A DNA stretch of 64,000 nt, taken from contig NZ_FXUE01000001.1 of the NCBI RefSeq assembly GCF_900182935.1, positions 372,001 through 436,000 of the forward strand, read 5' to 3'. The translations under genes and the position numbers were made by a program. This DNA is from Fibrobacter sp. UWB10. Its GTDB lineage: Bacteria > Fibrobacterota > Fibrobacteria > Fibrobacterales > Fibrobacteraceae. The stretch's first letter is position 1. Each line of letters starts with the position of its first letter. The notes under the pieces were generated by a model. The model saw nothing but the letters and a program-made list of their open reading frames with translations. It did not search any database and was not told the origin of the DNA. Below, in pieces: positions 918 through 3,521 of the stretch.

Positions 918-1466
918 TTAAAATTCGCGAAAATATTCAGGCCGGTGAAAATCCGGCTTTTCTGTTTCGATTTCAAAGGCGCTCAAGTAATGGGGCGTCT
1001 TTGCCTTATCGGCACACTTGTAAAGGTTCCCCCGAAGAGTCACCCCTTCAAAGGTCCGCATACCAAAGAGTGAAGGCGGAATTTGGACCGTCATTCCCCA
1101 ACATACAAGATTGCCAGCGACACTGGCAAGTTGCTTGGTGCGAATAACTGAATCGATTTCGGATTGCGTCAGCTTGGTGCGCGAATTGCGATCGGGCCCA
1201 CGGGCTGCCAACAAGTAGCCGCGGCAAGTCGTTTCGAAGTTGAAGTACTCAGCAGGGTTCGCCGGATTCTGCAAGAAAATTTCGACGCAGGAATCTTCCC
1301 AGCTAGAGCCGTTGTCTTCCATGACTTCAGCACGAAAGCAGTCTGAAGGTTCTTCGACAACAAAATTCACCGTAAAATAATCCGGCGAAACATCGACTTC
1401 GGCAAGCACCGACGGAAGAGTCTTTCCCTGGTTTGCCGCCCAATTCATATTCGGTTTCAAGAGCAT
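918..1466 (-). CDS. CBM9-like carbohydrate-binding family protein, no signal peptide
   Basis: A 182-residue protein resembling the CBM9-like/DOMON beta-sandwich domains. The run WEDSCVEIFLQNP (about residues 56-68) is the characteristic motif, with FNFETTCRG after it and a C-terminal aromatic/charged stretch. The usual copies are attached to secreted xylanases. Here the domain is the whole protein and no signal peptide or lipobox is seen, so it may act in the cytoplasm or use an unrecognised export route. The start at 1466 has no strong ribosome-binding site. Its upstream side holds the triple palindrome at 1481-1520, which separates it from divergent spoVG. Ligand unknown. Confidence 0.7.
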   Translation of the reverse strand: MLLKPNMNWAANQGKTLPSVLAEVDVSPDYFTVNFVVEEPSDCFRAEVMEDNGSSWEDSCVEIFLQNPANPAEYFNFETTCRGYLLAARGPDRNSRTKLTQSEIDSVIRTKQLASVAGNLVCWGMTVQIPPSLFGMRTFEGVTLRGNLYKCADKAKTPHYLSAFEIETEKPDFHRPEYFREF

Positions 1467-1480
1467 GATTAAAAGGTAGT

Positions 1481-1520
1481 AAAGTGATTAATCACTGATT
1501 AATCAGTGATTAATCACTTT
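1481..1520. promoter_or_regulatory. 40-bp perfect palindrome: three TGATTAATCA operators phased at 11 bp
   Basis: The whole 40-bp segment is its own reverse complement. It contains three copies of the 10-bp palindrome TGATTAATCA, at 1485-1494, 1496-1505 and 1507-1516, so the period is exactly 11 bp, one helical turn. AAAG and CTTT flank the array. It lies 14 bp before the CBM9-like start and about 130 bp before spoVG. That is the geometry expected for a cooperative dimeric repressor or activator of one or both divergent genes. The factor is unknown. Confidence 0.65.
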
Positions 1521-1647
1521 GCCAACGTTGTGCCCCTTTCAGAAAACAGCGTTTCTGCGCGAAATTCGCCAATTTTGATTATTGGCATGCTATTTGCATT
1601 TAGAGGTTCGCTCACAAAGCATAAACACTAACAAATAGGAGACCTCT

Positions 1648-1977
1648 ATGGTTACCAAAAACAAAATGCCTGAAAAAGAAACTGAGGCTAGTTCCGCATT
1701 CGATTGCCTCGCTGTCACCAACGTTCAAGTCTATCCTTTTCAAGAAGGTCCCTCAATGGGACACACCAAGGGAATCGCATCGATTGTATTGAACGATCAG
1801 TTCATGATTCGCGGGCTGCGCGTCATGGATGGCGAAAACGGCTTGTTCGTGGGCTACCCCATCGACCCGTTTTTCAAGGGCGAAACCTACCGTTCGATTT
1901 GCAACCCGGTAACGCGACAGCTTCGAGAACACATCGAAAATTGCATTCTTGAAAAATACCAAGCCTCCATCGTGTAG
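1648..1977 (+). CDS. spoVG: SpoVG family nucleic-acid-binding protein
   Basis: A 109-residue protein whose core matches SpoVG: a TNVQVYPF strand near the N-terminus, ASIVLNDQFMIRGLRVMDG in the middle, and GYPIDPFFKGETYRSICNPVT before the C-terminal helix. In Firmicutes and spirochaetes SpoVG is a small site-specific DNA/RNA-binding regulator; the role here is unknown. A first 18-residue polar extension precedes the core. The ribosome-binding site is AGGAG, eight bases before the ATG. yifB follows after an eight-base gap, so the two are probably cotranscribed. Candidate regulation is through the palindrome array at 1481-1520; a possible promoter is the TGCTATTTG stretch near 1589. Confidence 0.9.
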   Translation: MVTKNKMPEKETEASSAFDCLAVTNVQVYPFQEGPSMGHTKGIASIVLNDQFMIRGLRVMDGENGLFVGYPIDPFFKGETYRSICNPVTRQLREHIENCILEKYQASIV

Positions 1978-1985
1978 GGGTTAGC

Positions 1986-3521
1986 ATGTTCCGTCGAATC
2001 CGCTCTTATTGTTTGCTCGGAATCAAGGCCGTCCCTGTAAGCGTCGAAGTAGACGCTTCACAGGGGTTGCCCGGATTCACCTTGGTTGGTTTGCCTGACA
2101 ATGCCGTAAGAGAATCTAGGGAGCGAGTGGTTTCAGCCATTCGTTCCGTAGATAAAGTGGTGACAGGATTCCGTACTACAGTAAACCTGTCACCCGCGGA
2201 TTTGCGGAAAGAAGGGAGCGCCCTGGACTTACCCCTTGCTTTTGGGCTTTTATGTGCGACCGGAGAAATCGACGTTCCCGACTTGGAGCATCTCGTTTTT
2301 GTCGGAGAACTTTCGCTCGATGGTCAACTAAAGCCTGTCCGGGGCGTTCTTTCCATTGCAATGAGTTTGTCTGAAAAATCAAAAGACATCCTTGTGATCC
2401 CGAGAGCAAACGAACAAGAAGCGTCGCTTGTCGAAGGAATCCGCTACGTTTGCGCCGACACACTCAGGGAATGTGTCGAAAAGATGGAAGCCGGAGCAGA
2501 ACACCACGCAAAACATGCCGCCGGCTTTAAGAACCAAATGTATTCTAAACCCGCCGACCGAGACATTCCCGATTTCAAGAATGTGGTCGGCATGGAAAGC
2601 GTGAAACGCGCGCTCGAAGTCGCCGCCGCTGGAGCCCACAATTTCCTTATGGTAGGCTCGCCCGGAGCGGGCAAGACCTTATGCGCAAAATGCATACCGG
2701 GCATTCTGCCCGAAATGACCGAGCTTGAAATTCTCGAAACGACCCGAATCCATTCGTGTGCAAGAACTGCGGGAGACTCCGAAGAATTCAAGCCGGTCAT
2801 GGTCCGCCCGTTCCGTACCCCCCACCACAGCGCATCCATGGTGTCGCTGGTGGGGGGGGGCACCCGGCTAAAGCCGGGTGAGGCGAGCCTCGCCCACAAT
2901 GGAGTCCTGTTTCTCGACGAACTGCCGGAATTCAACCGCAGCGTTCTGGAAGCTTTGCGCGAACCCATGGAAGAGGGCGAAATCTCGATTAGCCGCGCCA
3001 GCGGGACTGTCACTTGGCCCGCGAGATTCATGATGGGAGCGGCCATGAATCCTTGCCCTTGCGGGTATGCCATGGACCCGAAACGTGCCTGCTCTTGCCT
3101 GCCCGAAGCACGCAAGCGCTACCAAGAAAAAATATCCGGCCCGCTCCTTGACCGCATCGATATCCAAGTGAGCGTCCCGCCCGTCGAAGCCTCGCAATTC
3201 GGCCGCAAGGGCACCGCCGAGTCTTCGGCCGAGATTCGCAAGCGAATCTGCGCCGCCCGAGAAATTCAACGCAAGCGATTCAAGGGTACACCCTTCAAGA
3301 CGAACGCCGAGATGTCTTCGGACCTAGCCAAAAAGAGTTGCAATCTTTCGGCGGAAACCGAACAGTTCGCCATCAACGCCGCCGACAGAATGGGACTTAG
3401 TGCCCGCGGCTTCTATAGACTATTAAAGGTCGGGCGAACTATCGCCGACCTTCGAAATTCCGATTCTGTTGAAATTATAGACCTTTCCGAGGCCCTGCGC
3501 TACCGCGCCTTCCGTAGCTAG
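1986..3521 (+). CDS. comM: YifB/ComM family Mg-chelatase-like AAA+ ATPase
   Basis: A 511-residue protein of normal family length. An N-terminal Lon-protease-like fold (about 1-170) precedes the Mg-chelatase AAA+ domain, which has a Walker A GSPGAGKT near residue 225, a Walker B VLFLDELPEF near 310, and a C-terminal Mg_chelatase_C helical domain (about 405-505). A cysteine cluster, NPCPCGY ... ACSCLP, sits between them as in other family members. ComM is a branch-migration helicase promoting integration of transforming DNA in Vibrio and Haemophilus; by homology this protein may act in recombination. A nine-G tract (2852-2860) followed by a perfect hairpin lies in the ATPase coding region. It converges on folB with one base between the stops. 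Confidence 0.92.
   Translation: MFRRIRSYCLLGIKAVPVSVEVDASQGLPGFTLVGLPDNAVRESRERVVSAIRSVDKVVTGFRTTVNLSPADLRKEGSALDLPLAFGLLCATGEIDVPDLEHLVFVGELSLDGQLKPVRGVLSIAMSLSEKSKDILVIPRANEQEASLVEGIRYVCADTLRECVEKMEAGAEHHAKHAAGFKNQMYSKPADRDIPDFKNVVGMESVKRALEVAAAGAHNFLMVGSPGAGKTLCAKCIPGILPEMTELEILETTRIHSCARTAGDSEEFKPVMVRPFRTPHHSASMVSLVGGGTRLKPGEASLAHNGVLFLDELPEFNRSVLEALREPMEEGEISISRASGTVTWPARFMMGAAMNPCPCGYAMDPKRACSCLPEARKRYQEKISGPLLDRIDIQVSVPPVEASQFGRKGTAESSAEIRKRICAAREIQRKRFKGTPFKTNAEMSSDLAKKSCNLSAETEQFAINAADRMGLSARGFYRLLKVGRTIADLRNSDSVEIIDLSEALRYRAFRS
2852..2880 (+). repeat. Nine-G homopolymer followed by a 9-bp hairpin inside yifB
   Basis: G9 at 2852-2860 encodes part of the family-conserved VGGGT stretch. 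It is followed directly by CACCCGGCT (2861-2869), AA, and AGCCGGGTG (2872-2880), a perfect inverted repeat. The frame is intact in this sequence. Confidence 0.8.

Follow-up and report, generated by a model that had tools for sequence, protein, structure and literature searches.

What is the role of a perfect 40-bp palindrome that lies between two divergent genes of Fibrobacter sp. UWB10? Within the window, the stretch of 64,000 nucleotides that was analysed, the palindrome AAAGTGATTAATCACTGATTAATCAGTGATTAATCACTTT can be read directly from the sequence and contains three exact copies of the 10-bp palindrome TGATTAATCA at 11-bp steps, exactly as the original prediction had described. The divergent layout that it had proposed is also present, with a CBM9_2 gene on one side and spoVG on the other (Table 1). 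Such regularity had been called unlikely by chance, and the counts agree: three exact copies are seen in the window against 0.06 expected, and at least three were reached in none of 100 dinucleotide shuffles. The whole 3.48-Mb genome holds seven exact copies, namely the three in the window, two in a second array and two singles on contigs C4 and C5; the singles lie within coding sequence, their number is at chance level, and they were rejected as sites. Tandem copies are found at two loci, both of them before sigma-54 promoters.

The array and its sigma-54 promoter

The sigma-54 promoter of the window, which the original prediction had missed, lies about 62 bp beyond the array and matches TGGCAY-N5-TTGCA with GG-N10-GC. 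Transcription of the spoVG-comM operon is expected to start near position 1609. The array very probably serves as the docking site of a sigma-54 activator powered by ATP. We consider it likely that it acts as the UAS of the promoter driving spoVG-comM, with a short bEBP as the foremost candidate for the activator. The SpoVG protein is 98% identical to SpoVG of an F. succinogenes record. On the other side of the array, the start codon of the CBM9_2 gene is 15 bp away (1466-1481) and has no clear Shine-Dalgarno sequence. This gene is probably a bystander; since its start codon is so near the array, a bound activator could influence it.

Table 1. Features of the array and its neighbouring genes, in positions of the window
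Feature	Position	Strand	Basis
CBM9_2 gene, 182 aa, divergent	918..1466	-	Pfam
Whole enhancer (UAS) array, candidate	1481..1520	none	Palindrome; position relative to promoter kept in relatives
Array unit 1, TGATTAATCA	1485..1494	none	Exact sequence
Array unit 2, TGATTAATCA	1496..1505	none	Exact sequence
Array unit 3, TGATTAATCA, promoter-proximal	1507..1516	none	Exact sequence
A/T-tract element with inverted-repeat tendency, just 5' of -24, here GAAATTCGCCAATTTTGATTA	1554..1580	+	Conserved in many of 93 sites
Sigma-54 (-24/-12) promoter TTGGCATGCTATTTGCA, GG-N10-GC	1582..1598	+	Sequence; conserved in relatives
Shine-Dalgarno AGGAG of spoVG	1637..1641	+	By eye
spoVG, 109 aa, PF04026, first gene of driven operon	1648..1977	+	Pfam
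comM-like gene, 511 aa, Mg_chelatase, ChlI and C-terminal domains, second operon gene	1986..3521	+	Pfam; pair kept in relatives

The second array has the same layout. It consists of two exact copies of TGATTAATCA at C1:347494 and 347505 (to 347514), again with an 11-bp step, and a degenerate third copy, followed by the sigma-54 promoter TTGGCACAATTCTTGCA and then by a Gp49/HigB-like toxin gene and an HTH antitoxin-like gene. Exact matches to TTGGCAYN5TTGCA number 12 genome-wide, and only these two loci, spoVG-comM and the HigB-like one, carry an array. Some of the ten array-less matches (L075, L076, L079-L086) precede PII-like, gltB-like, urtA-like and ureG-like genes, and others precede dapF, htpG and Clp genes, so that chaperones and a protease appear beside nitrogen genes; these names come from reading the translations. 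Judged by such neighbours, the array-less sites look like typical sigma-54 targets that other activators serve.

Conservation within and beyond Fibrobacter

In multiple Fibrobacter genomes, spoVG-comM is preceded by a sigma-54 promoter, with phased TGATTAA units or variants of them upstream. Because the array is tied to gene starts and kept in relatives, it is neither peculiar to this genome nor scattered at random through coding regions, and the earlier view of a phased, multi-unit regulatory array stands. A search pattern of one half-site and the promoter, ATTAATCR-N48-78-TTGGCAYN5TTGC, was found in 56 of 80 Fibrobacter genomes, and its reversed control in none of the 80. Altogether 93 distinct array-promoter sites were collected in the genus, 47 before spoVG and 46 before other genes; many of these sites are orthologous, so the counts are not independent. 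Three of the 46 (L116, L147 and L148, all from one genome) carry one half-site only and are doubtful members.

The distance between array and promoter is phase-locked. In 65 of the 93 sites the proximal unit begins 61-63 bp ahead of TTGGCA, and in another 17 it begins 69-73 bp ahead, about one helical turn further, giving peaks at -62 and -72/-73 in counts that share common descent. The promoter itself is invariant or almost so in the 93 sites, which were selected for it, and is also kept at spoVG in unselected genomes. What relatives retain of the array is the half-sites and their phase, not the perfect palindrome: many arrays can be read as TGATT...AATCA dyads about 20 bp wide, and others as compact 10-bp palindromes. 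The canonical half-site is GTGATTA; GTGTTTA is mixed in in G004, G009, G029 and G067, and further types are TGTTTGA (G031), GTGTCTA (G006) and GTGTCCA (G011, G014, G020, G022, G025 and G090). In many of the 93 sites, the spacer between array and promoter has conserved A/T tracts (TTT, AAA, TTTT) spaced by about 9-10 bp and is enriched in inverted repeats of the GCCGTTTT..AAAACGGC type, possibly marking a DNA bend or a site for a second protein.

Outside the genus, other families of the class mostly have a -24/-12 promoter before spoVG, sometimes degenerate, and show no TGATTAA array by eye. Such array-less, sigma-54-like promoters (L212, L220, L224, L226) indicate that sigma-54 control of spoVG predates the enhancer. 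SpoVG homologues in other gene contexts (L059, L063, L066, L072, L215) have neither the array nor a sigma-54 promoter; they are possibly phage or plasmid copies. Viral contigs gave 26 matches to the pattern and none with a tandem array, and thus no sign of phage carriage.

Candidate activators and rival readings

Which protein would bind the array? The genome encodes seven bEBPs. Orthologues of all seven were found in G003 and G025, and in G011 of all but the short bEBP. The short bEBP (G000:C7:81693-82592; L109:5694-6593) has 299 aa, an AAA+ domain with GAFTGA and a C-terminal Fis-type HTH, and no sensory domain; PF00158 scores 205 bits, GAFTGA and GESGSGKE are both readable, and HTH_8 reaches 19.5 bits, just below the cut-off of 22. 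Its gene is divergent from an aspartokinase gene, and no PspA-like partner gene or psp-like neighbour was seen in the neighbourhood read beside it. The protein evolves fast, with 54-67% identity to many genus members, and in canonical genomes its helix keeps the form ISRG(C/S)L.YQIKK.

The recognition helix of this protein varies together with the half-site. In 11 genomes, Tyr occupies the fourth helix position after ISR, and the half-sites of all 11 are of the TGTTT, GTGTC or GGAC type; the other 34 genomes have a different residue there, and in none of them does the array region contain two or more TGTTT/GTGTC half-sites. All 45 genomes are consistent with this correspondence, which spans about four independent changes: Tyr requires four on a tree built without the HTH. 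Fisher's test gives p 4e-8 with relatedness ignored, and a test of independent pairs has too few pairs for significance. The short bEBP was found in 74 of 80 genomes and in 39 of the 40 good ones. Two genomes fit less well: G011 (96% complete) has a diverged GTGTCCA-type array, yet its assembly shows no short bEBP, and in G006 the array is clearly changed and the helix only slightly.

The same enhancer could in principle serve another activator, an NtrC-like response regulator relaying a phosphorylation signal (L107:5830-7302), whose gene has as neighbours those of another receiver protein and of a large protein that is probably a histidine kinase. In the clade whose arrays are of GTGTC type, which includes G006, the helix of the regulator reads SRSTLWRKxKAL in place of SRATLWRKLKEL, and the regulator shows the highest Mantel correlation with the array, r 0.74 against 0.65 for the short bEBP, because this helix change marks one clade. 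However, its helix is the same in G004 and G009, and differs by just one flanking residue in G031, despite their GTGTTTA/TGTTTGA arrays, and it is there that the short bEBP changes. Likewise, between G009 and G000, and between G004 and G013 or G063, both the short bEBP residue and the half-site differ while the response-regulator helix, where read, is identical. We therefore regard control by this regulator as unlikely. If the array is taken to be a bEBP site, the covariation makes the short bEBP the probable activator and leaves the response regulator a small chance. Three further bEBPs (L024, L025, L029) were rejected, since their recognition helices are unchanged in the GTGTCCA genomes tested; L030 shows small helix changes in those genomes. 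A response regulator on C2 (L027 family) was also rejected, its helix varying among genomes with the same array and its Mantel r being about 0.

Readings without a sigma-54 activator fare less well. SpoVG autoregulation, raised in the original prediction, supposes that SpoVG binds ATTAAT cores and controls its own promoter. It merited a test because S. aureus SpoVG binds ATTAA(T/A) (PMC3688583), a sequence that occurs in each Fibrobacter unit, ATTAAT being present in every one, and the array does stand before spoVG. On the other hand, the array is not confined to spoVG but also precedes dozens of other genes (46 of 93 sites), diverged GTGTCCA arrays lack ATTAA, and array distance follows the short bEBP helix (r 0.66) and not the SpoVG specificity region (r 0.06, region placed by eye). 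Unlike the S. aureus case, the Fibrobacter array is tied to many sigma-54 promoters, a coupling that autoregulation leaves unexplained, and varies independently of SpoVG. The non-spoVG sites, the ATTAA-less arrays and the low correlation thus make autoregulation very unlikely; SpoVG may have a secondary role in canonical arrays. An ordinary repressor or activator operator for the CBM9_2 gene, or for both genes, would suit the closeness of the array to the CBM9_2 start codon and the palindromic form that is also typical of repressor operators. In other genomes, however, the array holds its position relative to sigma-54 promoters, of spoVG or of other genes, next to differing upstream neighbours, and a site 61-73 bp before -24 is placed as an enhancer would be and not as an operator overlapping the promoter, which renders an operator extremely unlikely. 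As for an RNA hairpin, terminator or cruciform, the strand does fold at -17.8 kcal/mol (z -9) and has a terminator-like match on the minus strand, but the array is upstream of both transcription units and no clean T run follows the stem. Such a role fails, and its probability is next to nil, because half-sites and phase are the conserved part and the perfect palindrome is not.

Binding, looping and ATP-driven remodelling of the polymerase form the standard mechanism of bEBPs. From the array, promoter, spacing, conservation, targets and covariation observed here, we infer a similar course for activation by the short bEBP. Its dimers would bind the TGATTAATCA-type units, all on one face of the helix, and binding to the phased units is likely to be cooperative. 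Units on one face would raise the local concentration and favour assembly of the ATPase ring, and looping of the DNA would then let the ring meet the RNA polymerase-sigma-54 waiting at 1582-1598, where ATP hydrolysis would remodel the polymerase and open the promoter. Since the short bEBP has no sensory domain, its amount or a partner protein would have to provide control, as for PspF. Two sites with one mismatch, each within a few kb of a bEBP gene (C1:478049 and C4:289075), were rejected; both lie within open frames and thus give no sign of bEBP autoregulation.

Array-linked genes and comparison with known systems

The array accompanies sigma-54 promoters of unrelated genes in Fibrobacter genomes. 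At about 23 of the 46 non-spoVG sites, the genes that follow are of toxin-antitoxin or abortive-infection type: Gp49/HigB with an HTH partner (about 13), ToxN (2), PIN (2), YafQ with RelB (1), a weak DUF4258 match with a BrnA/CopG-type antitoxin (1), DUF4160/DUF2442 (3) and Abi_2 (1). Other array-linked genes encode DUF3800 proteins (5), PDDEXK_2 or YhgA-like (Rpn-type) nucleases (about 5), GIY-YIG (1) and DUF6169 (1), and the remaining sites were left without a family. These family counts are approximate, because representatives were assigned by Pfam and the others by visible likeness, and related genomes in part contribute the same locus. In G008 (L113, G008:C73, about 1500-1620), the array, its promoter and a DUF2442 gene are flanked by thiG-like and thiH-like genes, as though a single insertion into a thiamine operon had brought in module and promoter at once.

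Tentatively, and with somewhat more doubt than confidence, these targets may be read as a genus-wide conflict regulon run by the sensor-less sigma-54 activator, in which spoVG-comM (recombination or DNA uptake) is joined by varying toxin-antitoxin, abortive-infection and Rpn-type nuclease modules that have repeatedly acquired the same enhancer-promoter. If this is true, one signal would switch on the operon and these modules together, and accessory modules would have been drawn into a host-controlled, ATP-dependent switch. The usual picture of toxin-antitoxin genes is that they repress themselves. In Fibrobacter, several unrelated families of them lie downstream of what looks like a single ATP-dependent activator switch, which a conserved operon of recombination type shares, so that the timing and purpose of their expression can be tested by studying one protein.

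Enhancers of sigma-54 promoters and bEBPs that lack a sensor are both familiar. Examples of sigma-54 enhancer-promoters with more than one activator site are that of NtrC at glnA and that of NorR, which has three sites at norVW. The Fibrobacter locus resembles these systems in its -24/-12 promoter and in having multiple dyad sites 60-110 bp upstream whose phasing suits looping and ring assembly, and differs in its GTGATTA half-site, its compact one-turn spacing and its targets, spoVG-comM and toxin-antitoxin-like genes. PspF, HrpR and HrpS are bEBPs without an N-terminal sensory domain, and the short bEBP is likewise an AAA+ domain with a Fis-type HTH and no regulatory domain. By sequence, however, its AAA+ domain is nearer to the solved NtrC/FleQ (E 5e-65) than to PspF (E about 1e-44), and its regulon is different, the array targets being genes other than a psp operon. 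RtcR is a sigma-54 activator of RNA repair and is comparable in its connection with stress and RNA damage (PMC9879122, PMC9650030); it differs in that none of the seven Fibrobacter bEBPs has a CARF domain and in that toxin-antitoxin genes themselves are the apparent targets here. Titles and abstracts of the open-access literature yielded no earlier description of a sigma-54 regulon joining spoVG-comM to toxin-antitoxin or defence-like modules, and no paper treating Fibrobacter succinogenes and sigma 54 together was found in that literature. A regulon of spoVG-comM and toxin-antitoxin or phage-defence-like genes in rumen Fibrobacter thus appears to be new. In addition, the half-sites GTGATTA, GTGTTTA, GTGTCTA and GTGTCCA, with their matching helix residues, form a natural series in which specificity change of a Fis-type HTH can be tested.
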